DNA of 63,863 bases, taken from contig JAPLJH010000045.1 in assembly GCA_026388695.1 (NCBI GenBank), forward strand, positions 1-63,863, written 5' to 3'. This DNA is from Deltaproteobacteria bacterium. GTDB lineage: Bacteria; Desulfobacterota; Desulfobulbia; Desulfobulbales; Desulfurivibrionaceae. Positions 2,536-51,388 of the stretch are shown piece by piece. A model generated the notes under the pieces. The model was not told the origin of the DNA. It ran no database searches and saw nothing but the letters and a program-made list of their open reading frames with translations. Position 1 is the stretch's first letter. The number at the start of each line of letters is the position of its first letter. A program made the position numbers and the translations under genes.

Positions 2536-3261
2536 ATGCTTAAACTTAAACAGGTGGGCCAGGCACAAATAATAAGCTCCGGCCAGAGATCGCTTCCGGA
2601 AGGAACAACTTATTCTGTCGATGGTGCCATTGTCCCATGTGATACAAAAGGTGGACGGCATATCTCCATTGTCTTGAAAATCGAAGATGTGATGCAGGCA
2701 ATTGTAACCGGCATATATCGTCCTGCGGAAGGGCGTTATGAATCACATTATCAATTCGGCCCAGGTTTCGGTGAATTGCGGTCGCGCTCATTCTCGGGTC
2801 AAGTTGAGGAAATAGGATCGGATCTCGGCGTCATTATGACCGGGACGCTCAACGAGCATCATCTTGGTGCAACCCAGATTGTTATTCCTCAATGGAAGGC
2901 GCTCCTAGGCGAAGTCGGCCTAGAGGGTTGTGACGCGGTTCTGGCCGCTATTTCCCCTTTTGTCTCGAAAAGTAAAAAACCTATGCCTCCAGTAGATCTT
3001 GATCCCCAGATTCAAGCTGTCCTTGCGCAGATCACGAAGGATTCGCACGCCGCCATGTTTGGGAAGACACGGGTTGACGTTGGAGGATATGAGGTGGATG
3101 GGTGCGCAGCAGCGTGTACCGCCGTTTCCGTGGCGTGTATAGCCGGTTGCGGTTATATGAGTGGAGGGTTGGGCACTGCAACCGGGGCTTGTGGTGCTAC
3201 ATGTGCGGCCGCGCAGTTTGCGTGTCTTTCTTATTGTACAGCTCAAAATTTTCCACAGTAG
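2536..3261 (+). CDS. Protein of unknown function with a C-terminal tandem CX3CX6CX3C module
   Basis: A 241-residue product. The ATG at 2536 has GGGAGGGG just upstream; an in-frame start further upstream (2416) lacks such support. Residues 1-180 are a soluble-looking, beta-rich region with no family I recognise and no signal peptide. Residues 190-234 hold eight cysteines in two identical spacings, C190-x3-C194-x6-C201-x3-C205 and C219-x3-C223-x6-C230-x3-C234, joined by a Gly-rich 13-residue linker and otherwise Ala-rich. This would make two disulfide-stapled helices. The layout is reminiscent of halocin-C8-like or other cysteine-hairpin antimicrobial peptides carried at the end of a longer precursor, but that is inference. 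The gene is an island between two terminators, with no adjacent transporter or modifying enzyme. Confidence 0.75.
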   Translation: MLKLKQVGQAQIISSGQRSLPEGTTYSVDGAIVPCDTKGGRHISIVLKIEDVMQAIVTGIYRPAEGRYESHYQFGPGFGELRSRSFSGQVEEIGSDLGVIMTGTLNEHHLGATQIVIPQWKALLGEVGLEGCDAVLAAISPFVSKSKKPMPPVDLDPQIQAVLAQITKDSHAAMFGKTRVDVGGYEVDGCAAACTAVSVACIAGCGYMSGGLGTATGACGATCAAAQFACLSYCTAQNFPQ

Positions 3262-37194: not shown

Positions 37195-38796
37195 ATGTCC
37201 GAGTCCTTTGTCTGTCTCAATCCAGAATTTTTCCCTGCCTGCCGGAGATTGTTGGGCGGTCCGCAGTGGCAGGGGTTTCTTGCTCTCCTAGCCCCTGCCG
37301 GAAACCTGGCGGATTTAGCCGGGCTGCTTGCCGATCCTGCTTTCGCGTTAGAAGGGGTCCCTGGATATCTCTCCGATCTGGCCCGGCTGGAGCTGGCCCT
37401 ATGCCTGGCGCAGCAGGAAAGGCCGCTGCCTGCAATGGTGGAGCGGCTCACGGTAAATCCTTCTCTGCAATTGCTCCAAAGTTCCTGGGCTGGGTTGCCC
37501 CATCTGTTGGGGGAGAACGGAGCGAGGGCCGTGCCCCAGCCTGTACCGCAGCAGGAGATAATCCTGGTCTGGGTGGCACCGGAAACGGGAAAGAGCCAGG
37601 CGCAGGCAGCAGGGCCCGAGGATCTGCTGGCCTTGAAGCTGGTCTCTGAAGGGATCGATCCCCGCCAGGCCGCCGCCCTTGGGGAATTGTCGGTAGGGGC
37701 CATTGAGGAGGCTATTGAGCGTGCTGCGAACAAGGGGCTTCTTCTTGTCCCAGCCTCGCGTCTTCGTCGGGACGAGGAGAGCTTCCCCATCACCGAGGCG
37801 CTGGAACCCCGTTTCATGGTCGCCGAGGTTTTCACCCTGCAATGGCACATCACCCAGGTCTGCGATCTGCATTGCAAGCATTGCTACGACCGGAGTGATC
37901 GCGCTCCTTTGTCCCTGGCCCAGGGCCTTGCGGTGCTCGATGACCTGCTGGCCTTTTGCCAAAGCCGCCATGTGCGGGGACAGGTGAGCTTTTCCGGCGG
38001 CAACCCCTTGCTCTATCCTTATTTTCTTGAGTTGTATCAGGCGGCGGTGGATAGGGGCTTCACCGTGGCCATCCTCGGCAATGCCACCGCCAAGGAGCGG
38101 CTCCTGCCCGTGCTGGCTATTGAGAAACCGGCTTTTTGTCAGGTAAGCCTTGAGGGTCTGCCCGAACATAACGATTTTATCCGGGGCACGGGCTATTTTG
38201 CCAGGGTTATGGAGTTTCTCGATCTCCTGCGTGAGTTGGATATATACTCCATGGTGATGCTCACTTTGACCCGTGGCAACATGGAGCAGGTTCTGCCCCT
38301 GGCGGAGCTGCTCCGCGACCGGGTCGATCTGTTTGTTTTCAACCGGCTGGCCATGGTCGGGGAGGGTTCCTTGCTGGAGTCGGTGCCCATCGCGGAGTAT
38401 CGCGGCTTTCTGGAACGCTATCTTGTTGCGGCCCGCGAGAATCCGGGCATGGGCCTCAAGGATAATCTTTTCAATCTGCTCCGTGCAGAAACCGGCGAAC
38501 CCCTGCTAGGAGGCTGCGCCGGGTTCGGGTGCGGTGCGGCCTTTAACTTCGTCTCCCTGCTGCCCGATGGCGAGGTGCATGCCTGTCGGAAATTTCCCTC
38601 GTTCATCGGCAATATCTTTACGCAATCCCTGGCGGAGATATATGATGCCCCGACGGCCCGCCAGTACCGAGCCGGATGCCAGGCCTGTCGGGACTGCCGT
38701 CTGCGTCCTGCCTGCGGAGGTTGTCTTGCCGTGAGTCACGGTTTTGGCCTCGATGTCTTCAGCCAACGCGACCCCTATTGTTTTTTAGTAAGTTAG
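37195..38796 (+). CDS. sbtM: Radical SAM/SPASM peptide maturase, SbtM-like
   Basis: 533 residues. Residues 1-130 are a helical N-terminal domain (FFPACRRLLGG, YLSDLARLELAL); about 140-190 is a small winged-helix-like region (ALKLVSEGIDPRQAAALGE). The radical SAM core starts at C223-x3-C227-x2-C230 (CDLHCKHCYDRSD), with GQVSFSGGNPLLY after it. The C-terminal SPASM part carries many cysteines (GCAGFGCGAAFNF, HACRKFPS, CQACRDCRLRPACGGC) for auxiliary Fe-S clusters. From memory this is the 'selenobiotic' peptide maturase SbtM described bioinformatically by Haft and Basu. No precursor peptide lies beside it; the likely one is at 46994-47260. Confidence 0.82.
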   Translation: MSESFVCLNPEFFPACRRLLGGPQWQGFLALLAPAGNLADLAGLLADPAFALEGVPGYLSDLARLELALCLAQQERPLPAMVERLTVNPSLQLLQSSWAGLPHLLGENGARAVPQPVPQQEIILVWVAPETGKSQAQAAGPEDLLALKLVSEGIDPRQAAALGELSVGAIEEAIERAANKGLLLVPASRLRRDEESFPITEALEPRFMVAEVFTLQWHITQVCDLHCKHCYDRSDRAPLSLAQGLAVLDDLLAFCQSRHVRGQVSFSGGNPLLYPYFLELYQAAVDRGFTVAILGNATAKERLLPVLAIEKPAFCQVSLEGLPEHNDFIRGTGYFARVMEFLDLLRELDIYSMVMLTLTRGNMEQVLPLAELLRDRVDLFVFNRLAMVGEGSLLESVPIAEYRGFLERYLVAARENPGMGLKDNLFNLLRAETGEPLLGGCAGFGCGAAFNFVSLLPDGEVHACRKFPSFIGNIFTQSLAEIYDAPTARQYRAGCQACRDCRLRPACGGCLAVSHGFGLDVFSQRDPYCFLVS

Positions 38797-38835
38797 AAGT
38801 TGGTTCCTGCGCTTTTTTGGGCAGAAACCAACTTC
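38796..38835 (+). terminator. Hairpin immediately after the sbtM-like gene
   Basis: GAAGTTGGTTCCTGC and GCAGAAACCAACTTC pair at 14 of 15 positions. The six-T run is in the loop, not after the stem, so a simple intrinsic terminator is doubtful. Confidence 0.45.
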
Positions 38836-38877
38836 GTTAACGCACTTATCCTGTTTGTCAGGGCTGGAGCACTGATT

Positions 38878-39618
38878 ATGGATTTACGGATTCTTTCCTA
38901 CAATATCCACCGGGCCATCGGGGTTGATCGGCGGTTTCGACCGGAACGCATCGCCGCGATCCTGGCCCATTACGATGCCGATATCGTGTTGTTGCAGGAG
39001 GTGGACGTGGGTGCGCCCCGTTCGCGGGAATTGGATCTGGCCCAAGAACTGGCTGAGCGTTGCAATTATCCCTACTACGCCGTTGGCCTGAACGTCCAGC
39101 TACGCAAGGGCATGTATGGCAACGCCACCCTGAGTCGCTATCCCATCGCCAAGGAACGCAATATCGACCTGACCCTTGATGGCCGCAAGGCCAGGGGCTG
39201 CCTGTTCACCGAGTTGGAATTGACCGATGGCAGCACTTGCCGACTGCTGCCCGTCTTCAACCTGCACCTGGGGCTGTCTTTCAAGGAACGACCCCAGCAG
39301 GTGGGCCGCCTGGTGCGGACCCCGGAGTTCACCGGCATCGCCGCCGATGCTCCCTGTGTGGTGGCTGGGGATTTCAACGACTGGTGGACCAGGCTCGCCC
39401 CGCTGTTTACCGAGGCCCTGGGCTTTGTCTGCGCCACCAACCATGGGGTTGGCTATCAGAATGCTATCTTGACCTATCCCTCCTTTTCGCCCACCACCGG
39501 TCTGGACAAGGTGTTTTGCCGGGGGCCGATCACCGTGCTGGGGGGCAGGCGCTGTCGCCTTCGGGTGTCCAAGGTTGCCAGCGATCATCTGCCCGTTATT
39601 GTTGATCTGCAACTATGA
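38878..39618 (+). CDS. Endonuclease/exonuclease/phosphatase family protein
   Basis: 246 residues from the ATG at 38878. Family motifs: YNIHRAIG, LLQEVD, GNATLSR, NLHLG, GDFNDW and SDHLPV. These are the metal and catalytic residues of the DNase I-like phosphoesterase fold. There is no signal peptide. The substrate may be nucleic acid, a phospholipid or a phosphoester. Confidence 0.9.
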   Translation: MDLRILSYNIHRAIGVDRRFRPERIAAILAHYDADIVLLQEVDVGAPRSRELDLAQELAERCNYPYYAVGLNVQLRKGMYGNATLSRYPIAKERNIDLTLDGRKARGCLFTELELTDGSTCRLLPVFNLHLGLSFKERPQQVGRLVRTPEFTGIAADAPCVVAGDFNDWWTRLAPLFTEALGFVCATNHGVGYQNAILTYPSFSPTTGLDKVFCRGPITVLGGRRCRLRVSKVASDHLPVIVDLQL

Positions 39619-39716
39619 GATAGGTTGTCGGCGAGAACGTTTTTTCGTTGACTTTGCGGGACATTTTCCTGAGCATATCAATATGCCTTCCCTCAAAAAA
39701 ACCAGGTCAACTGTCC

Positions 39717-41138
39717 ATGGATACTGATTCTTCACAAATAAGCATTCTCCTTGTCGAAGATGATCTCGGCGACGCCCTGCTTGTGCAGGAGATGCTCTCG
39801 GAAATCAAGGACCCTCTTTTTGCCGTCACCCATGTCGACCGGGTTGCCAAGGCTCTGGACCAGATCCGAGAGGCGCAGTTCGGGGTTATCCTTCTTGATC
39901 TTTCGTTGCCCGACGGCCAGGGCATGGAACTGGTCAAAGTGGTTCGCCAGGCTGCGCCCGAAACGCCCATTGTGGTGATGAGCGGTCAACGCGATGACGA
40001 TTTTGCCCTCAAGATCGTTCAGGAAGGGGTTCAGGATTACTGCGTCAAAGGGCATGTCGATAGCTTCCTTCTCACGCGGACTCTCCGGTATGCCATTGAG
40101 CGCAAGCGCATCGAGGATACCCTGCGTCGGCGTAACGCCGAACTGGCCGTGTTATTCCATGTTTCCTCCACGGTGAGCCGCTGCATCGACATGCAGGGGC
40201 TTCTTGCCGATGTTATTGGCTCGCTTGCCGGAATGGATATTCTTAGCCTGAAATGGCAAGGCGCCATCCTCACGGTCGAGGACGATGGGACTCTGCGACT
40301 CGCCCAGGAACTCGGCCATTCTCCGACCTTTATCGAGGCGCATCAGCGATTGCGATGTGGCGAATGTCTCTGCGGCTTGGCCGTGGAGCGCGGGGAGATG
40401 GTGGTTTCCTCCGATGCCTTTCAGGACGCGCAGCATACCCTCCGCTATGCCGGAATGGAGCCCCACGGTCATATCGTTATTCCCCTTAAGTCCAGAGAGC
40501 GGGTCGTTGGCGTCCTTTGTCTTGATACCGCGCCGGACATTTCGGTGCGGGAGGGAGAGCAAAAACTGCTGCTTTCCATCGGCGAACAGGTCGGCATCGC
40601 CGTTGAAAACGCCAGGCTCTATGAGGAAACCCGGCGCTTGGCGCTCCACGATTCACTCACCGGACTGGCCAACCGGCGGCATTTGGATATCGTCGCCGAA
40701 AGCAATCTTGCCAGGGCCCGTCGCCACGGCACCCCCTTTGCCATCATCCTGCTCGATCTCGATCATTTCAAGCGCTACAACGATACCCATGGTCACAACG
40801 CCGGGGATCAGCTCTTGGTGGCAGTGGCCAATACCATGAAAAAGGAGGTGCGGGAGACCAGCCTCGTGGTGCGCTATGGCGGCGAGGAGTTTTTGGTCCT
40901 GCTCTCGGATACGGAGATCGTTGCGGCTTTGGCAGTGGCGGAGCGGATCAGGCTCAAGGTTCAGGAAGAAACCGGGGTCACCGTGAGTCTGGGAGTATCG
41001 TGGGCCAAGGATGCCACCCGTTCGCTGCCCCTTTTGATTGCCGAGGCCGATGCGGCGCTCTATCAGGCGAAAAATAGCGGAAGAAACAGGGTGGTTAGCG
41101 CAGACACGCGGCAAAAAGGGGAGGACGTGCATGGCTGA
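39717..41138 (+). CDS. Response regulator with GAF and GGDEF output (diguanylate cyclase)
   Basis: 473 residues. An N-terminal receiver domain (phospho-acceptor Asp in VILLDLSLPDG, Lys in YCVKGH) precedes a GAF domain (about 155-300) and a GGDEF domain (about 310-465, YGGEEF). The position of the I-site RxxD reads RETS, so product inhibition through that site is not expected. The stop overlaps the next gene by 8 bp, tying it to the substrate-binding lipoproteins. Confidence 0.92.
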   Translation: MDTDSSQISILLVEDDLGDALLVQEMLSEIKDPLFAVTHVDRVAKALDQIREAQFGVILLDLSLPDGQGMELVKVVRQAAPETPIVVMSGQRDDDFALKIVQEGVQDYCVKGHVDSFLLTRTLRYAIERKRIEDTLRRRNAELAVLFHVSSTVSRCIDMQGLLADVIGSLAGMDILSLKWQGAILTVEDDGTLRLAQELGHSPTFIEAHQRLRCGECLCGLAVERGEMVVSSDAFQDAQHTLRYAGMEPHGHIVIPLKSRERVVGVLCLDTAPDISVREGEQKLLLSIGEQVGIAVENARLYEETRRLALHDSLTGLANRRHLDIVAESNLARARRHGTPFAIILLDLDHFKRYNDTHGHNAGDQLLVAVANTMKKEVRETSLVVRYGGEEFLVLLSDTEIVAALAVAERIRLKVQEETGVTVSLGVSWAKDATRSLPLLIAEADAALYQAKNSGRNRVVSADTRQKGEDVHG

Positions 41139-42174
41139 TTATCGTGTCAGAAAAAGCAAAGGGTTACGGGGGAAATCCCTGGTCGTTTTTCTGGCGGCAG
41201 TTTTTGCGCTGACGGGTGTCGGCTGCAAGCAGCGCCAGGAGGAAGCACCCAAGTCGGCGCCTGTGGCGCAAGAATCTGTGGCGCTCTGTCGCTCCACCAC
41301 GGCTTTGCTGCCCATGGTGGTCGCGGAGAAGCAGGGCTTTTTTGCCGAGCAGGGGCTCACGGTCTCGGTTCGGGACTCCATTATGGGCAAGGAAGCGTTG
41401 GAGGGGCTGCTCAGGGGAGAGTGCGACTTGGCCACTGCCGCCGAGCCACCTGTGGTCGAATATGCCCAGCAGCGTGATGATTTTCGTCTGCTCGCCGCCC
41501 TGCAAAACACGGATAATCTGAATCGCATCGTCGCACGGGCCGACCGGGGCATTGCGAGCCCGGCGGACTTGCACGGCAAGCGGATTGCCACGAGCAAGGG
41601 AACGGCGCCCCATTATTTTCTGGAGTTGTTTCTTGAAAAACATGGGATGAAAGCCAAGGATGTTGTCATTGTCTTCATGAAATCAGACGAGTTGCTGGCG
41701 GCGCTTACCAGCGGCCAGGTCGATGCCGTTTCCATGACCAACAATGTTGTCAGCAAGGCCCAAGAGGCGTTGCAGGACAATGCGGTGCTTATGGAGGAGC
41801 CGGGGCTGTATCGCAATTATTATCTGCTTCTGGCGACCACGAATTTGCTTGAAAAACGGCCAGAGGTTGTGGTGCGGTTTCTCCGTGCGGTGGTCAAGGC
41901 CGAGGCCTTTATCCAGCAAAGTCCGGAGGAAACATTGGCCATTGGCCAGGCCAGCCAGAATCAGAAGGTCTCATCCTCGGAAATCAAGCAACTCCTTGAG
42001 GGCTATCAGTACCGGTTGACCTTGGACCATGCCATGCTCATGGGCCTGGAAGATACGGCCCGGTGGATGGCCGCCCTCACGGGGACAGGGCAGAAACCTG
42101 TTAATTTTCTCAACCTGATTGCGGCCAACCCATTACGGACAGTGCAGCCGGATGCTGTCAGGCTTGAAAAATAA
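41131..42174 (+). CDS. Substrate-binding lipoprotein (NMT1/SsuA-like), copy 1
   Basis: 347 residues. Signal peptide with lipobox TGVGC. The periplasmic type II binding fold follows: AEKQGFFAEQGLTVSVRD, GECDLATAAEPPVV, GKRIATSKGTAPHYFL, VDAVSMTNNVV. The family usually serves ABC importers for sulfonates, nitrate or thiamine precursors, yet no permease or ATPase gene is nearby. It is paralogous to the next gene. Confidence 0.9.
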   Translation: MADYRVRKSKGLRGKSLVVFLAAVFALTGVGCKQRQEEAPKSAPVAQESVALCRSTTALLPMVVAEKQGFFAEQGLTVSVRDSIMGKEALEGLLRGECDLATAAEPPVVEYAQQRDDFRLLAALQNTDNLNRIVARADRGIASPADLHGKRIATSKGTAPHYFLELFLEKHGMKAKDVVIVFMKSDELLAALTSGQVDAVSMTNNVVSKAQEALQDNAVLMEEPGLYRNYYLLLATTNLLEKRPEVVVRFLRAVVKAEAFIQQSPEETLAIGQASQNQKVSSSEIKQLLEGYQYRLTLDHAMLMGLEDTARWMAALTGTGQKPVNFLNLIAANPLRTVQPDAVRLEK

Positions 42175-42200
42175 TGGGGCGCGAAGAGAGGAGGCCAGCT

Positions 42201-43226
42201 ATGCGCCATCATCATGTTAAACCTGTTTCTGCCGCAGTGCGTAGCCGGTTTGTTGCCGCAGGCCTCGTGCTCTTGCTCTTGGTCGTCGGCTGCAAACAGA
42301 AGGAAGGGCCTCCCGCCGTCGCGCCCATCGCCATAACCATTTGCCATGGCAGCGTCACAGACATTCTGCCCCGCATTGCCTTTGAGCAGGGCTATTTTGC
42401 CGAGGAGGGGCTTGCGGTTACGCTGAAGGATCTCGATGGCAAGCAGGCCTTTGATGGCATGCTCAAGGGAGAGTGCAATTTTGCCGTGAGCGGAGCGCCC
42501 CCCATTGTTCTGGCCGATCCCCAAAATACGCCATTCGCCATTCTGGCGACAGTCTTGTCCGACGATGATTCCACCAGAATCGTCGCCCGCCGCGACCATG
42601 GCATCGCCGTACCCCAGGATCTCAAGGGCAAGCGGATTGGGGTAAAAAAAGGGGTTATTGGCCATCTTTTCCTTGATCTGTTCATGATGAAGCATGGCTT
42701 GGCGCAAAAAGAGGTTGCTCTGGTTTTCATGGATTCGGATAAACTTCAGCCGGCCCTGGCCAGAGGCGAAATCGACGGGTTTTCCATGACCAACAAAATG
42801 GTCAATGCCGCAGCCAAAAGCCTTGGCGACAAGGGGGTGGTCTTTGCCGAGCCGGGACTGAACACCATCCAGGCCATCCTCACGACCCGGCTCGATATTC
42901 CGCTCAACCTGCAAGCGGCCCCCAGGGTATTGAAGGCCCTGGTTCGGGCAGAGCAGCTTGCGGAGAGCGAGCCTGTAGCGGCCAAGGCGCTGCAGGCAAA
43001 GGGTTCGTCCCTTTCTTCCTCGGAGATTGAAGATGTCTGGGCTCGATCCACCATCGAGGTGACCTTGGCCAATCCTCTCTTTGTCCATCTGGAGGATCAG
43101 TACCGTTGGCAGATGGAGCGGGGCGGGTCGCCTGGGCCTGCAGCCATGCCCAATTACCTGAACCTCGTTTTCCCGGAGTATTTGCGCGCCATCAAGCCGG
43201 GCGGTGTTTCGGTCATCAAGCGCTGA
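42201..43226 (+). CDS. Substrate-binding lipoprotein (NMT1/SsuA-like), copy 2
   Basis: 341 residues from the ATG at 42201 (GAGGAGG upstream). The signal peptide ends in the lipobox LVVGC. Same fold and order as copy 1: FEQGYFAEEGLAVTL, GECNFAVSGAPPIV, GKRIGVKKGVIGHLF, IDGFSMTNKMV. It is 26 bp after copy 1 and 11 bp before the histidine kinase. The arrangement suggests sensing rather than uptake. Confidence 0.9.
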   Translation: MRHHHVKPVSAAVRSRFVAAGLVLLLLVVGCKQKEGPPAVAPIAITICHGSVTDILPRIAFEQGYFAEEGLAVTLKDLDGKQAFDGMLKGECNFAVSGAPPIVLADPQNTPFAILATVLSDDDSTRIVARRDHGIAVPQDLKGKRIGVKKGVIGHLFLDLFMMKHGLAQKEVALVFMDSDKLQPALARGEIDGFSMTNKMVNAAAKSLGDKGVVFAEPGLNTIQAILTTRLDIPLNLQAAPRVLKALVRAEQLAESEPVAAKALQAKGSSLSSSEIEDVWARSTIEVTLANPLFVHLEDQYRWQMERGGSPGPAAMPNYLNLVFPEYLRAIKPGGVSVIKR

Positions 43227-43237
43227 GGGATCACACA

Positions 43238-45646
43238 GTGAAGATACGGTGTAAACTCATTCTGATCGGCGTTATTCCGGTGGTCTTGCTGCTGGCGTTG
43301 ACAGCTGGTTTTCTTTTTGCGACCCACAAGGTGGATCGCATCAACCACAAAGCCATTGTTGCCGACGAGATTGCGACGACTCTGGGCGATTTGTCCATTC
43401 TGACCTATGAGCATCATATCTACTTCGAGGACCGTGCCCATGCGCAGTGGGTGCAAAAACATGAATTCCTCGGCAAGCAGTTGGAAAAGGAGGGCGCGCT
43501 CTACGATACGGCCGAGGAAAAAGAGCTTTTGGAGCGAATCCTGCACGCATCGCGAACCCTGGGGTTCCTCTTTGTCCAGTACGGGCCCCATCCTAGCGAA
43601 GGCCAGGGAATACGGCAGGCCGCGCAGGGAAAATTTTTTCATGAGCGGATTACGGCCCGGATTCTTCAGGAATTGGCAGTGGCCAGCCCGGCGGCGGATA
43701 CTCTCCATGAGTTGAATCATGAGCGGGCCCGTGCGCTCTCCAGGCAGATCGCGCTGGTAAGCATCCTGGTGGTCGGGGGCGTCGCCACCTTCATGCTGGT
43801 CATCTCCTTTCTTGTCATCCGTGCCTTTACGGTGCCGGTGGGAAAGTTGAGCGATGCCTTTGCCGCGGTCAGTATCGGCGATTTGGGTCACCGCATCAAC
43901 AGCTCGGCCAAGGATGAACTGGGCAGCCTCTCCCGGGGCTTTGACAATATGGCCCAACGCCTTCAGGAGAGCAGCGATTCATTGCATCGTCTGAATCTCG
44001 AACTGGAGCAGCGGGTGGCGGAGCGCACCGAAGATCTGTCGCACGCCAATGCGGAACTGAAGCTCAACGAAGAGCGGCTGGCAGTTCTCCTGGCCCTCAG
44101 CCAGAAGGAGTTTGCGACCGAGGTGGAATTGGTCCACTATGCCTTGGAGGAAGCGGTGCGGCTTGCGCGCAGCAAGGTCGGCTATCTGCATTTCTTCAAC
44201 GAAGACCAGCAAACCCTCGGGCTTTTCCAGTGGTCCGAGGCGGTCATGGAGTTCTGTACCGCAGCAAAAACCCCGCATTATCCCCTGGCTGAGGCTGGGG
44301 TCTGGGCCGATTGCGTGCGACAGCGCCAGCCGGTGGTGCATAACGATTACCAGAATCTGGCGAATAAAAAAGGTCTGCCCGAAGGCCATTTTCCGTTGTT
44401 CCGGCATCTGAGTCTGCCCATCTTCGATGGGGAAAAGGTTGTCGCGGTTCTCGGGGTCGGCAACAAGGAGGAGCCCTACGATGCGGACGATGTCCAGCAG
44501 CTTATCCTCTACATGCGCAGCGCCTGGGAGATGGTCAAGCGCAAGCGGGTGGAGCTCTTGCTGTTTGAATCGGAGCAGCGGTATCGCACCATCTTCAACG
44601 AGTCGCCGGACGGTATTCTGCTGATCGATACGGAGACCGGAAAGGCGCTTGAGTTCAACGATGTCGCCCACCGGCAGTTGGGCTATAGCCGGGAAGAGTT
44701 CGCGGAACTCACCGTGGCGGACTATGAGGCCCAGGAGAATGCCGGGCAAATCCGGGAACGTTTTGAAAAGATCAAACGCCTGGGCAAGGAGAGCTTTGTT
44801 ACCCTGCATCGGACCAAGTCCGGAGAGCTCAGAAATATAGCGGTGTCGAAGCAGGCCCTGCTCCTTGGCGAGCGGCAATACCTCTACGCCATCTTCCGGG
44901 ATATTACCGAATTGCGGCAGGCCCAGGAGAGCCTGAAAGAATATGCCCAATCCCTGCAGCGGAGCAACAAGGAACTTGAACATTTCGCCTATGTGGCTTC
45001 CCACGATTTGCAGGAGCCGCTGCGCAAAATCGGCAGCTTTACCGAGCTGCTGGCCCGGAAATATCAGGGGCGGCTGGACGAAAAGGCCGACATCTACATC
45101 GGCTACATTGTCGATGGCGCGCAGCGGATGCAGATTCTGATCAACGATCTGCTTGCCTTTTCCCGGGTAACCACCAAGGGCAACGAGTTTGCGTCGGTTG
45201 ACTGCAACATGCTTCTGGCGCGGGTGCGGCAGGATCTTGATCTGGCAATCAGGGAGAGTGGCGCCCGGCTCAGCGTGGCCGAACATCTGCCGACGATTAT
45301 GGCGGATGCGGTGCAGCTTGGTCAGGTTTTTCAAAACCTCATTGGCAATGCCATCAAATATTGCGCTGCCGGGCAGGCCCCGGAGGTTGCCGTGGCAGCG
45401 GTTGAGCGCGACGGCGATTGGCTTTTTTCGGTGCGGGATAGCGGAATCGGCATAGATTCGCAGCATTTCGAGCGGGTTTTTCAGCTTTTTCAACGCTTGC
45501 ACACCCGAGAGGAATATTCGGGCACCGGGATCGGTCTGGCGCTGTGCAAGAGAATCGTCGAACGGCATGGCGGAAAGATCTGGCTTGAGTCGGCTGCGGG
45601 CCAGGGCGCGACCTTTTTCTTCACCGTGCCGCGCACGCTGGCTTAG
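43238..45646 (+). CDS. Histidine kinase with HAMP, GAF and PAS domains
   Basis: 802 residues, GTG start. TM1 (about 9-28), a periplasmic stretch of about 140 residues, TM2 (about 168-190) and HAMP come first. Then a GAF domain (about 290-440), a PAS domain (about 450-560), HisKA with phospho-His589 in SHDLQEPLRKI, and HATPase (NLIGNAIKY, DSGIGID, TGIGLALCKRI). It is bacteriophytochrome-like in its kinase half. Its likely partners are the two response regulators just downstream. Confidence 0.93.
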   Translation: MKIRCKLILIGVIPVVLLLALTAGFLFATHKVDRINHKAIVADEIATTLGDLSILTYEHHIYFEDRAHAQWVQKHEFLGKQLEKEGALYDTAEEKELLERILHASRTLGFLFVQYGPHPSEGQGIRQAAQGKFFHERITARILQELAVASPAADTLHELNHERARALSRQIALVSILVVGGVATFMLVISFLVIRAFTVPVGKLSDAFAAVSIGDLGHRINSSAKDELGSLSRGFDNMAQRLQESSDSLHRLNLELEQRVAERTEDLSHANAELKLNEERLAVLLALSQKEFATEVELVHYALEEAVRLARSKVGYLHFFNEDQQTLGLFQWSEAVMEFCTAAKTPHYPLAEAGVWADCVRQRQPVVHNDYQNLANKKGLPEGHFPLFRHLSLPIFDGEKVVAVLGVGNKEEPYDADDVQQLILYMRSAWEMVKRKRVELLLFESEQRYRTIFNESPDGILLIDTETGKALEFNDVAHRQLGYSREEFAELTVADYEAQENAGQIRERFEKIKRLGKESFVTLHRTKSGELRNIAVSKQALLLGERQYLYAIFRDITELRQAQESLKEYAQSLQRSNKELEHFAYVASHDLQEPLRKIGSFTELLARKYQGRLDEKADIYIGYIVDGAQRMQILINDLLAFSRVTTKGNEFASVDCNMLLARVRQDLDLAIRESGARLSVAEHLPTIMADAVQLGQVFQNLIGNAIKYCAAGQAPEVAVAAVERDGDWLFSVRDSGIGIDSQHFERVFQLFQRLHTREEYSGTGIGLALCKRIVERHGGKIWLESAAGQGATFFFTVPRTLA

Positions 45647-45679
45647 GAAGATGCATCAATTGAACCGAGGAGGGGTACC

Positions 45680-46150
45680 ATGGCCACCAAACCGCGCAAC
45701 ATAGATATTCTGCTGGTGGACGACGATCCCGGCGATGTGGAGTTGACCAAGGAGGGGCTGCAGGCCGCCAAGATGCTGGTCACGCTCCATGTGGCGGAAG
45801 ATGGGGAAAAGGCCTTGAAATTTTTGCGGAAAGAGGCGCCGTACACCGAGGCGGCGCAGCCGGACATTGTCTTGCTCGATCTCAACATGCCGAAAAAAAG
45901 CGGCCTGGACGTACTCAGGGAAATCAAAGCTGATCCAGCGCTCCGCTGTATTCCCGTGGTGATCCTCACCACCTCGGAGGCCGAGACCGACATTGTCAAA
46001 TGCTATGACCTGGGCGCCAACTGCTATATCGCCAAGCCGATCAGCTTTGCTGCGTTTACCAAGGTGGTGGCCATGATTGAGGAGTTCTGGTTTACCATTG
46101 TAAAAATGCCCCCCAAGAAAATGGGCCGGGATGGGCATGGGTTTCTTTAA
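45680..46150 (+). CDS. Single-domain response regulator (Rcp1-like)
   Basis: 156 residues. Acidic pocket LLVDDDPGD, phospho-Asp in IVLLDLNMP, Thr in VVILTTSE, Lys in YIAKPI. The C-terminal tail (KKMGRDGHGFL) goes beyond the receiver fold. It is the family that partners phytochrome-like kinases such as the upstream one. Confidence 0.92.
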   Translation: MATKPRNIDILLVDDDPGDVELTKEGLQAAKMLVTLHVAEDGEKALKFLRKEAPYTEAAQPDIVLLDLNMPKKSGLDVLREIKADPALRCIPVVILTTSEAETDIVKCYDLGANCYIAKPISFAAFTKVVAMIEEFWFTIVKMPPKKMGRDGHGFL

Positions 46151-46198
46151 GTCTGCCGTTTCGGGGCGATACGGTTCCAGTGAAGAGAAGGTGCCGCA

Positions 46199-46804
46199 AT
46201 GAGGGTTCTCCTTATAGAAGACGATCAGGCAGACGCGTTTCTCATCCAGGATATGCTGCTGGAGTCGACGGCCGGCAACGTTGTTGTCCAGCATGTTACG
46301 CGGCTTGAGGAGGGAATGCTTCAGGCTGACGAGAATGGGTTCGATATCATCATCTCCGATCTTGGCCTGCCGGACAGCCAGGGGCTGGATACCGTCACGG
46401 CGCTGGCCTCGGTGGCGAAGCATCTCCCCTTTATCGTGCTGACCGGTCTGGCGGATCACGCGGTGGGTCTTGCGGCGGTGAACGCCGGAGCCCAGGATTA
46501 TCTGGTCAAGGGGAAGGTCACCGGGGAGATGTTGGTCCGCGCCATCCGTTACGCCATTGAACGCAAGAGGATCGAAAATGAAAAGGCGCAGGTCATAGTC
46601 GAGCTGCAGGAGGCGTTGGCAAAGGTAAAACTGTTGAGCGGGTTTATCCCGATCTGCGCTTCCTGTAAAAAGATTCGGGATGATAATGGATATTGGCGGC
46701 AGGTTGAATCGTATATTAGAGAACATTCCAACGCGGAATTCAGCCATTCCATCTGCCCGGAGTGCTCCCATCGCCTTTACCCGGAGTTGTACCCGAAGGG
46801 CTGA
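46199..46804 (+). CDS. Response regulator with a cysteine-containing C-terminal segment
   Basis: 201 residues. Receiver domain: LLIEDDQAD, DIIISDLGLPD (phospho-Asp), YLVKGK. Then a coiled linker and a C-terminal segment PICASCKKIRDDNGYW with ICPECSHRLYPELY, two CXXC pairs that may bind zinc. This tail is common on regulators and kinases of Desulfobacterota; its role is not known to me. Confidence 0.9.
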   Translation: MRVLLIEDDQADAFLIQDMLLESTAGNVVVQHVTRLEEGMLQADENGFDIIISDLGLPDSQGLDTVTALASVAKHLPFIVLTGLADHAVGLAAVNAGAQDYLVKGKVTGEMLVRAIRYAIERKRIENEKAQVIVELQEALAKVKLLSGFIPICASCKKIRDDNGYWRQVESYIREHSNAEFSHSICPECSHRLYPELYPKG

Positions 46805-46993
46805 GCGGCAAAAGCCACGCGGCGCTGTTTCGCGCTGCCCCAATCCATTTTTTTCGTTGTTTTTGAGATGTTTTTTTTTGATACTATGATTATGCCGACC
46901 TCGGGCAGGGCTGTCCGAGGTCGATCAAGTGGGGGCCGGAAAACGCCGGTTGCCTCGTTTTCCCAATACGCAAGCGATTGCAAGGAGGGATGC

Positions 46994-47260
46994 ATGGAAC
47001 CAAAGGATGTGAAAAAGTTTTTAGCAGGGTTTGGCATTGCCAGCCTGCTGGCCGGAGCCGGGCTTGCCGCTTCGGCGACCAAGGCTGTCGGGGCCAGTGG
47101 CTGAGGCGGCAGCAAAAGCGGTGCCGTGAGCACTGAAGACAAGGCAAAGGCAGGCGGGGAAAAGGGAGTTGCCGAGACAAAAGGCACCCCGGAAGAGGAA
47201 GCGGCAAAGGCCAAGAAGAAAAAAGAAGAAGAAAAGAAAAAAACCGGAAAAAGCGGCTGA
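46994..47260 (+). CDS. sbtA: Selenocysteine-containing peptide precursor, SbtA-like ('selenobiotic')
   Basis: 88 residues if the UGA at 47102-47104 is read as selenocysteine (residue 37). AAGGAGG lies 5 bases before the ATG. Residues 1-36 are a leader with charged MEPKDVKKF, then a Gly/Ala-rich hydrophobic stretch and ASG before U37-GGSKSG. After the UGA the frame stays open for 51 codons with a Lys/Glu-rich tail. A bacterial SECIS-like hairpin lies at the right distance. An ordinary caller would report a 36-residue peptide or nothing. It is the likely substrate of the radical SAM enzyme at 37195-38796. The family name is from memory. Confidence 0.82.
47105..47135 (+). promoter_or_regulatory. 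Bacterial SECIS-like hairpin after the UGA
   Basis: A 6-bp stem CGGUGC/GCACUG (47119-47124 with 47130-47135) closes the loop CGUGA. The loop GU lies 22-23 nt after the UGA. In E. coli fdhF, from memory, the equivalent stem is GGU-GC/GCACC with GU at about 20-21 nt. A competing stem (CGGCAGC with GCGGUGCCG) overlaps it. Confidence 0.72.
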
Positions 47261-47304
47261 AGCGGTTGATACAGAACGCAGGCTGCGTTCAAAAATGTTT
47301 GCAG

Positions 47305-47329
47305 AAGGCAGGGAAACCTGCCTTTTTTT
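47305..47329 (+). terminator. Terminator after the sbtA-like gene
   Basis: AAGGCAGG and CCTGCCTT form a perfect stem with a GAAA tetraloop, followed by a T run. The peptide gene therefore ends its own transcript before the flavoprotein gene. Confidence 0.94.
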
Positions 47330-47491: not shown

Positions 47492-49108
47492 ATGGCTGAG
47501 CAGAAAAGGCTGACAGAAGAAGATGCGCAGGCGCAGCTGCAAAAGTTTTTTGCGGAAATACCCCGGACCATTTCTTTGGTTCTTTTCTGCGATCCGGCGG
47601 GAAAAAACGAACCCTTTGCCGAGGGGGCCAGGCAGATCATCCGCGCTGTCCGGGAGATAACCGACAAGGTGACCCTGCGTGAGTATACTCTCCAGCACGA
47701 GCTGGCCAAAGAGTGGCAGATCACCCGGTCGCCCACCCTGGTCTTTGCTCCGGAAGCCTTCAAGATTCGCTGGCTGGGCGCACCCATTGGCCATGAGGCG
47801 CAGACCTTCATGGAGGCGCTTCGTATTATTGGCCGCCAGGAGCCGGGCCTGGGCAAGGAGGCCATGAAGGTGCTTGCCAAGCTGGACTCACCTCGGGCAG
47901 TCAAGGTGTTTGTCAGCCCCTCCTGCCCGTATTGCCCGCAGGCGGCAATCAATGGTATCCGGGCTGCCGTGGCCCGGCCCGATCTGGTTTCCCTGGAAAT
48001 CATCGATATCCAAGCCAATCCTGACCTGGCCGATCAGTACGCGGCCCAGAGCGTGCCCCAGACCTTTGCCAATGAAAAGCAGATCGGCCTGGGCGCCCAG
48101 CCAGAGGAGATTTTTGTCGCCTCCCTGGTGGCGTTGGAGCCGCAACGGGTTTTCATCCCGGACAGCGATGCCGAGGAGATCACCTGCGATCTGGTCATTG
48201 TCGGTGGCGGGCCTGCCGGGCTGACCGCAGGCATCTACGCCGCCCGGAGCGGCTTGCAGGCGGTGGTTGTGGAAAAAGGCGTGCTGGGCGGGCAGGTCGC
48301 CACCACTCCCATGGTGGAAAACTATCCGGGCTTCACCCAGGTGGGCGGCAAGACCCTGGTGGACATCATGGTGACCCATGCCCTTGAATATGTGAAAATT
48401 TTCCCCGGCGAGGAGGTGCAGGCCATTGCTCCGGGCGAGGTGTTCACGGTCACGACCACCAGACGTCGCTACAAGGCGCGGGCAGTGCTGCTGGCCACCG
48501 GCGCAGGTTACAAGAAACTTGGCGCGCCAGGTGAAGAGCGTTTGGCCGGGCGCGGGATCAGCTATTGCGCGAACTGCGATGGTCCGCTTTTCACGGGGAA
48601 AAAGGTGCTCATGGTGGGCGGCGGCGATAGCGCCGTGACCGAGGCCCTGCATCTGCACAACATCGGGGTTGGGGTGACCATGGTGCATCGGCGGGAGAGC
48701 CTGCGCGCCCAGGAACGGCTGGTGGTCAGCCTGCGGCAATCCGGCATTCCGGTGCTCTTCAACAGCGAGGTTGTCGAGATTTTAGGCGAGTCAAGGGTGG
48801 AAGCGGTGCGCCTTAAAAACAACCAAACCGGCGAGGAGTCCACCCTGCCGGTGGAGGGCGTTTTCATCGCCATCGGTTTTACCCCGGCAGTGGAGCTGGC
48901 TCGAAGCCTCGGGGCCGAGTTGACCCCGGACGGTTATATCAAAAAGGATGAGCGTCATCGGACCACGGTGCCGGGTGTTTATTCGGCAGGCGATGTGGAG
49001 GGCGGTTTCAAGCAGATCGTCACTGCGGCCGGGCATGGCTCCGAGGCGGCGCTCGCTATCTTTGAAGACCTGATCAACCCCTATTGGACGAATCAGAAAA
49101 AACGGTAG
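47492..49108 (+). CDS. Thioredoxin-reductase-like flavoprotein with N-terminal glutaredoxin-type domains
   Basis: 538 residues. Residues 1-110 form a redox-inactive thioredoxin-like fold; 115-215 a second one with CPYC at 145-148. From 230 a TrxR flavoprotein: FAD motif VIVGGGPAGLTAGIYAARSG, redox centre CANC at 359-362, NADPH motif VGGGDSAVTEA, and YSAGDVEGG. The layout recalls AhpF, where the N-terminal domain passes electrons to a peroxiredoxin. No AhpC is adjacent. Its position after the selenopeptide gene hints at a role in keeping that thiol/selenol system reduced, but a terminator separates them. Confidence 0.92.
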   Translation: MAEQKRLTEEDAQAQLQKFFAEIPRTISLVLFCDPAGKNEPFAEGARQIIRAVREITDKVTLREYTLQHELAKEWQITRSPTLVFAPEAFKIRWLGAPIGHEAQTFMEALRIIGRQEPGLGKEAMKVLAKLDSPRAVKVFVSPSCPYCPQAAINGIRAAVARPDLVSLEIIDIQANPDLADQYAAQSVPQTFANEKQIGLGAQPEEIFVASLVALEPQRVFIPDSDAEEITCDLVIVGGGPAGLTAGIYAARSGLQAVVVEKGVLGGQVATTPMVENYPGFTQVGGKTLVDIMVTHALEYVKIFPGEEVQAIAPGEVFTVTTTRRRYKARAVLLATGAGYKKLGAPGEERLAGRGISYCANCDGPLFTGKKVLMVGGGDSAVTEALHLHNIGVGVTMVHRRESLRAQERLVVSLRQSGIPVLFNSEVVEILGESRVEAVRLKNNQTGEESTLPVEGVFIAIGFTPAVELARSLGAELTPDGYIKKDERHRTTVPGVYSAGDVEGGFKQIVTAAGHGSEAALAIFEDLINPYWTNQKKR

Positions 49109-50596: not shown

Positions 50597-51103
50597 TCAG
50601 CAGCCTTCCACGGCCTTGCCTTTCTTTTTGACCGGCGCCGAAGTGGTGGCCGGGGCAGGAGCTGCCTTCTGCTCCGAAGCAGCGGCATCTGCTTTATGGC
50701 AGGCGGTGCAGGCAGTCGGGCCTTTCTTGCCGTTCACCCCGGTGGTGTGGCAGGTCTTGCACCGGGCATGGAACACGTCCATGGGCTTTTGGAGTTTGGC
50801 GTTGGCAAACTTTTCGTTATGGCAGGTTGCGCAATGCAGGCCATCGGTGTTTGCCAGCCCGGCGATGGCCGCCTCGTTCAGGGGCTGATGCTTGGCATCG
50901 TGATGGCAGGTGGTGCAATCAAGGCCAAGGGCTGTGTGTTTGGCATGGCTGAACAGGGCGGGTTTCTTGCCCTTGATCACCAGCTCCTGGGCCGGGGCTG
51001 CGATTTTCCCGGTGGCTGGAGTGGTGGCGGCATGCAGATCGATCATGGTGATGGTCAGTCCGGCTGCGCACATCATGGTAAGGGCAATCACTGTTTTTTT
51101 CAT
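50597..51103 (-). CDS. Tetraheme class III cytochrome c3-type protein
   Basis: 168 residues with a signal peptide (cleavage near LHAATT). Four CXXCH motifs start at Cys63 (CTTCH), 91 (CATCH), 115 (CKTCH) and 132 (CTACH), with His residues for the sixth ligands, as in the small cytochromes c3 of sulfate reducers. It is a periplasmic electron carrier. The Ala/Pro/Lys-rich tail ends in VEGC. TAGGAGAAAC before the ATG gives a good ribosome site. Confidence 0.92.
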   Translation of the reverse strand: MKKTVIALTMMCAAGLTITMIDLHAATTPATGKIAAPAQELVIKGKKPALFSHAKHTALGLDCTTCHHDAKHQPLNEAAIAGLANTDGLHCATCHNEKFANAKLQKPMDVFHARCKTCHTTGVNGKKGPTACTACHKADAAASEQKAAPAPATTSAPVKKKGKAVEGC

Positions 51104-51388
51104 CGTAGTTTCTCCTAAGGTTGTTTTTTTGTTTTCCGGGGTGGCTCCTGCGGAACCCCTTTCCTTTTGGCTGTATCCTAGCCACAATCCAGCGGCGTTT
51201 CTAGAGGACATGGGGTCATGTCGGGCGACATCGGTTACAGCGCTGGGGATGTGTGTGGCTCAAGTCTGGCTGCTTCTTGGCTTTTGTTGATTTCCATTGC
51301 CCCTGCTTTGGCGGGCGTGGTAGTCTGGCGGCCCGATGAAAAAGACGTTTGCCCGCGCGGTTGCGCTTTTGATAAACGGACAGAGAAG

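Follow-up and report, generated by a model that had tools for sequence, protein, structure and literature searches.

Organisation of the sbtA locus

The window (the whole stretch of 63,863 nucleotides that was analysed) carries at 46994-47269, on the forward strand, a small gene that very probably encodes, judging from its sequence and that of its relatives, an exported peptide with selenocysteine (Sec) at two in-frame UGA codons. The 27-residue leader of the product scores 48.5 bits (5.3e-13) against the NCBIfam model TIGR04081, for which the curated cut-off is 30.5 and the description reads SbtA family thio(seleno)oxazole RiPP natural product precursor. The original prediction, made from the bare sequence, was thus right to call the gene an SbtA-type precursor and wrong to call it unannotatable. 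A ribosome-binding site (AAGGAGG, 46982-46988) and, as weak evidence, a sigma-70-like promoter match (46863-46890, 10/12 in a consensus scan) precede it on the same strand. From the ATG at 46994 the frame runs through 36 codons to a first TGA (47102-47104, residue 37) and through 51 further open codons to a second (47258-47260, residue 89), after which come AGC GGT and a third TGA (47267-47269). The ribosome site and both open stretches are as originally described. The gene had been taken to end at 47260 and to encode 88 residues with one Sec; the relatives, which end in SGU[SG]G followed by TAA, TAG or TGA, instead make it very probable that a second Sec codon is read here and that the frame ends at 47269, giving a precursor of 91 residues with Sec37 and Sec89. 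Its motifs are an ASGUGG that includes residue 37 and a terminal KSGUSG (..GKSGUSG), separated by a spacer rich in K and E. A scan places an intrinsic terminator, separate from the second hairpin described below, at 47303-47326 on the same strand. Gene callers that halt at the first or the second UGA would mis-define sbtA genes.

The SbtM-like maturase that had been reported in the window lies at 37195-38796 on the forward strand, 8 kb upstream of sbtA (38796 to 46994). This radical SAM/SPASM protein of 533 residues, with a CxxxCxxC motif and matches to Pfam PF04055 and PF13186, matches TIGR04082 over its full length (7.9e-216; 717.8 bits vs a cut-off of 350).

Directly after sbtA, 47492-49108 (forward strand) encodes a protein-disulfide-oxidoreductase/AhpF-like N-terminal part fused to thioredoxin reductase, and the fetched flanks show this fusion after sbtA in four other relatives (G200, G201, G205 and G207). 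A class III cytochrome c on the reverse strand (50597-51106) ends ..KKKGKAVEGC before a TGA, the same EGC end as in SbtA of genera g23 and g45 (..KAAIEGC). Far upstream, an ORF at 2548-3258 (forward strand) has a Cys-rich C-terminal tail (..GCAAACTAVSVACIAGCGY..ACLSYC..); a Pfam search with it gave no match, and its product resembles a bacteriocin-type precursor.

Machinery for Sec insertion is encoded in the genome, an assembly of 2.58 Mb in 114 contigs that is 87% complete. The original prediction had proposed a search for selA, selB, selC and selD, and all four are present: profile searches find selA, selB, tRNA-Sec and selD above family cut-offs, and ARAGORN also predicts a tRNA-SeC. For selB there are two full-length matches with almost equal scores (L002 and L003) on separate contigs (C77 and C99), perhaps an assembly duplicate. 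In selD, too, there is an in-frame TGA, and the loop of the 7-bp hairpin behind it begins at +21, which gives a yardstick from the same genome for the SECIS distances of sbtA.

SbtA and SbtM among relatives

SbtA matches were found in 136 of 257 genomes of the same order, in 133 of them over the cut-off. From 135 genomes 150 matches were fetched, of which seven (L022, L109, L110, L131, L210, L211 and L214) were dropped as truncated at a contig end, broken or unconvincing as SbtA, so that 143 were analysed including the window. One of these (L049) failed the rule used to set protein ends and was excluded from the site counts, leaving 142 proteins; read by hand, it has two Sec. A further matching genome (G163) fell outside the fetched set and is counted with the 122 others below. 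Among the dropped loci, L022, from the same genus (G205), has an sbtA that has apparently lost the stretch between the first SGU and the end while the 3' hairpin and terminator remain, and L211 (G144) has an SbtA leader that runs into an sbtM remnant whose maturase match is interrupted by in-frame stops.

Across the 143 proteins the predicted number of Sec is zero in 3, one in 16, two in 61, three in 38, four in 21 (one of these being L049, an artefact of the end rule), five in three and six in one. Four to six Sec are thus found in 24 of 142 proteins, with a maximum of six in 124 residues. SbtA is Cys-only in genomes G254, G255 and G249, yet selA is present in each of them; the missing Sec there thus does not follow from missing selA. 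Several SbtA genomes gave no selA match at 1e-40, including the near-complete G114, G118, G127 and G128; these misses are probably search failures, and absence of selA was therefore unusable as a control. In the part of a published survey that is accessible, two Desulfosediminicola genomes have entries of 43 and 40 in what appears to be the column for known selenoprotein genes (PMC12013277).

SbtM over its cut-off is present in 123 of the 135 SbtA genomes vs 5 of the 122 others; among the 12 SbtA genomes that lack it a few have fragments. In 77 of the 143 loci the maturase gene follows closely after sbtA (median start-to-start distance 534 bases), and it is upstream in seven, six of which belong to the genus of the window and are arranged as in it; it is absent from the fetched flank in the remaining 59. 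Sampling of the phylum gave SbtA matches in 39 of 395 genomes, ten of these being from the same order. Outside the order 18 of 20 inspected loci were readable, and in 16 of these 18 there are one to four UGAs in SGU-type motifs.

The second UGA codon

All 11 intact genes of the genus (the window and ten relatives) read through the second UGA to KSGU[SG]G, which is followed by TGA in eight and TAA in three. Throughout the order, Sec is predicted within the last five residues in 92 of 142 proteins, and the stop codon after it is TAA in 50, TAG in 13 and TGA in 29; ends were set by a scripted rule, which for the 29 with TGA involves judgement. Were this UGA an ordinary stop, neither the conservation of SG behind it nor a further stop codon of another kind would be expected. 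In L150, L178 and L187 the last UGA stands directly before TAA and may itself be the stop. The 50 proteins that have no C-terminal Sec end EGC in 16 cases and otherwise in the rest; one weak-match relative (L216, in G167) ends ..KPGHSG before TAA.

Since the stop codon of the window's gene is itself TGA, the assignment of Sec89 rests on the relatives together with the hairpin that follows it. This candidate SECIS 2 (47274-47290, forward strand; GAACGCA-GGC-TGCGTTC) lies beyond the stop codon, has seven base pairs and a GGC loop at +21 to +23 after UGA89, and was recognised by stem scans and by its conservation in the genus. A member of the same family in which only UGA37 encodes Sec and UGA89 ends an 88-residue product would fit the further TGA that the window has two codons after the second UGA, and also the third or so of relatives (50/142) without C-terminal Sec. 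However, this reading leaves unaccounted for the SGU[SG]G followed by TAA in three of the ten intact relatives of the genus, the TAA or TAG after 63 of the 92 C-terminal Sec of the order, and the 7-bp hairpin with a loop G at +21 that the genus keeps behind UGA89, and we regard it as improbable.

SECIS hairpins and selection on the gene

The 6-bp hairpin that had been predicted after the first UGA, with a loop GU 22-23 nucleotides away, was found at 47119-47135 on the forward strand as SECIS 1, with a CGUGA loop at +21 to +25 after UGA37; stem scans and suppressed synonymous change both point to it. In single-sequence folding it was not significant (z = -1.08; 27 of 200 shuffles were at least as stable), and when a longer stretch is folded a competing hairpin comes out lower in energy. 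Single-sequence folding was therefore set aside as proof of a SECIS in favour of family-wide tests, and an energy-based hairpin picker, which returned an implausible bulged structure at the first site, was replaced by explicit stem scans.

For internal UGAs a hairpin was counted when at least five contiguous pairs enclosed a loop of 5 nt whose first base was at +18 or +21, no other anchor being allowed. Such hairpins follow 232 of 261 internal UGAs in the 142 proteins of the order and are missing at 29, vs 3 of 16 Cys sites (one of the 16, in L167, being a lipobox Cys, and two of the three coming four or five codons after a UGA) and 2.9% of 8282 background positions. At the 197 sites anchored at +21, pairing reaches 83-96% per position over six base pairs and falls to 15% at the seventh, which defines a helix of six. 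Stem exchanges of C-G for U-A and of A-U for G-C were seen, and stems pair over a mean of 5.5 bp within a site vs 2.5 bp in cross-genus combinations. Loop position 2 is G in each of the 15 loop types listed, the commonest being AGGUA, CGUGA, CGGGA and AGGUG.

For C-terminal UGAs the criterion was at least six base pairs with a loop start at 17-27; 84 of 92 have such a hairpin and eight do not, vs 2 of 16 C-terminal Cys ends and 9.2% of background positions, the latter being coding sequence and not 3' UTRs. In 72 of the 84 the hairpin starts only after the stop codon. When the loop position was left free, without a background for comparison, a hairpin of at least 5 bp followed 100 of the 101 UGAs in the 24 proteins richest in Sec (four to six each). 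A single hairpin apparently serves two UGAs in four loci (L037, L045, L196 and L215), where the two lie four or five codons from each other: the first of them has none of at least 5 bp at +18, +21 or +24 and would use one at +30 or +33. The hairpins are conserved beyond chance by these sequence comparisons, although SECIS 1 taken alone does no better than shuffles.

Selection was followed as the proportions of synonymous (pS) and non-synonymous (pN) differences among the 11 genes of the genus (the window and ten others). The leader (pS 0.47, pN 0.14) and the spacer (pS 0.60, pN 0.16) differ from the eleven codons after UGA37 that hold SECIS 1, where pS falls to 0.16 with pN at 0.08; this low pS indicates that the codons of the first hairpin are held at the RNA level. 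It follows as our inference that the recurrent AVST or AGST after SGU reflects, at least in part, translation of the hairpin. In the tail, pN/pS is 0.26 and indels are in frame. A tail not conserved in homologues would have spoken against the original prediction; the low pN/pS argues that it is translated and kept as protein. A 36-residue peptide ending at UGA37, followed by a tail open by chance, would suit the non-significant folding of the first hairpin, yet it is already contradicted by the tail's pN/pS and in-frame indels and by the conservation of the hairpin across the family, and deserves scarcely any credence.

Predicted maturation by SbtM

Comparison with relatives demonstrates, at the level of predicted features, two UGA codons each with a SECIS, translation of the tail and coupling of the gene to SbtM. 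In the structural model of SbtM (mean pLDDT 82.5) a unit of three strands and three helices at about residues 92-180 precedes the radical SAM domain. The nine best Foldseek matches of the model are RiPP maturases, aligned over 398-484 columns; the matches include 5wgg and 5why (which we take to be CteB), SuiB (5v1s and, together with its precursor, 5v1t) and SkfB. A Pfam search of the N-terminal part recovered no known leader-binding domain, and the superposition is loose (rmsd about 10-18), so an N-terminal leader-binding (RRE-like) domain is likely from the model and its fold matches, short of proof.

The original prediction held that the modified product was not experimentally established. 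For the family this needs qualifying: according to the accessible part of a review (PMC11002830), a homologous SbtM (WP_083768621, assayed in vitro by Lewis et al. 2021) removes four hydrogens from both Cys and Sec substrates, and its Cys product was identified by NMR as a thiooxazole. With the chemistry of a homologue published, the product of SbtA is not wholly unknown. By analogy, the selenocysteines of the window peptide are probably turned into selenium-containing rings, and we infer that both of its sites are modified.

Possible role of the peptide

The leaders are lysine-rich at the start and hydrophobic, and a loose pattern finds an AxA-like site a short way ahead of the first SGU in 109 of 143; a loose lipobox pattern matched 18 leaders, about a dozen of which are convincing by eye. 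These features suggest export by the general secretory route. The accessible part of a preprint on copper-binding 5-thiooxazole peptides counts the modified SbtM substrate as one of the compounds that share the band at about 305 nm (PMC12668002). This shared band and the thiooxazole chemistry of the homologue hint that SbtA may yield an exported selenooxazole peptide that chelates a soft metal. Genomic context gives metal handling no support: apart from sbtM, no gene neighbour was found in more than 15 of 46 neighbourhoods, and the most frequent clusters, one containing GGDEF and one of sensor kinases as judged by eye, occur at 15 of 46 loci each. Conserved neighbours were accordingly abandoned as a clue to role.

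Taken as a whole, the best explanation joins two UGA-SECIS units, selenooxazoles made by SbtM, export and soft-metal binding, and in its entirety has in our view about an even chance of being correct. SelB would deliver Sec at both UGAs, guided by the spacer hairpin for UGA37 and by the hairpin beyond the stop codon for UGA89. SbtM would then bind the leader and oxidise the S-G-Sec sites, with loss of four hydrogens, to selenooxazoles. The leader would double as a Sec signal peptide and bring the modified peptide to the periplasm, where the selenooxazoles may bind a soft metal, most likely copper.

Two other roles have to be weighed. The Sec content, which reaches six in 124 residues, and the signal-like leaders would also suit a peptide for selenium storage or delivery, a bacterial counterpart of selenoprotein P in which Sec is cargo and the ring secondary. 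However, storage leaves unexplained why SbtM is nearly always present and why Cys-only members occur in selA-positive genomes (G254, G255 and G249), and we consider it unlikely. An antimicrobial role, suggested by the name Selenobacteriocin given to TIGR04081 in the accessible part of PMC13188914, appears slightly less likely still: the neighbourhoods show no constant gene for export or immunity, with nothing besides sbtM above 15 of 46 loci (in clusters that carry no family-model annotation), and carriage of SbtA by 133 of 257 genomes of the order looks to us more like a housekeeping function.

Relation to known systems

The window gene is a further member of a known family, because an SbtA with two Sec is already recorded: Table 1 of a 2026 inventory, in the part that is available, lists Selenobacteriocin, TIGR04081, with the motif SGUG and two Sec, citing Lewis et al. 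2021, and gives at most three Sec per family (PMC13188914). It resembles the family in its leader, which scores over the cut-off, its SGUGG motif, its two Sec and the presence of SbtM in the genome, and differs in having sbtM 8 kb upstream, whereas the maturase gene is close downstream in 77 of 143 loci, and in its K/E-rich spacer. The enzyme matches TIGR04082, the family of WP_083768621, over its full length, and its activity is predicted from that likeness. Neither four to six Sec, nor a hairpin for each UGA, nor a hairpin after the stop turned up for this family in the literature searched, which included few subscription papers; Lewis et al. 2021 may cover some of these points.

Sec near the C-terminus, as far as their names tell, is also a feature of the UXX-star, KCU-star and UXPK-star selenoproteins in the available part of the same Table 1, and would place the SECIS at or past the stop codon there too; they are, however, other families, for which that part of the table names no RiPP maturase (PMC13188914). 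Captophorins, which include the bufferins, are 5-thiooxazole copper peptides made by MNIO enzymes, with seven rings in fontiphorin (accessible part of the preprint PMC12668002). The likeness lies in a thiooxazole-type ring, several per peptide, which for SbtA is predicted; in contrast to the MNIO enzyme and sulfur of captophorins, the maturase of the window is a radical SAM enzyme and the element would be selenium. We tentatively propose, at somewhat less than even chances, that SbtA genes are arrays of Sec codons, almost all UGAs having their own SECIS and the last of these usually lying after the stop, with up to six Sec in 124 residues; that AVST or AGST is translated hairpin and not a feature of the peptide; and that, with every Sec converted to a selenooxazole, the product would be an exported poly-selenooxazole metal chelator, the selenium counterpart of captophorins.

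If the predicted Sec are real, SbtA peptides are among the most selenocysteine-dense bacterial gene products, and the question why bacteria of the sulfate and sulfur cycles invest several Sec insertions in one small exported peptide can be put to the test. Selenoprotein P of animals is likewise exported and carries several Sec in one protein, as SbtA would if its predicted export holds. There, two SECIS elements in the 3' UTR serve ten UGAs (accessible part of PMC5133445), whereas in SbtA nearly every UGA has a hairpin of its own.
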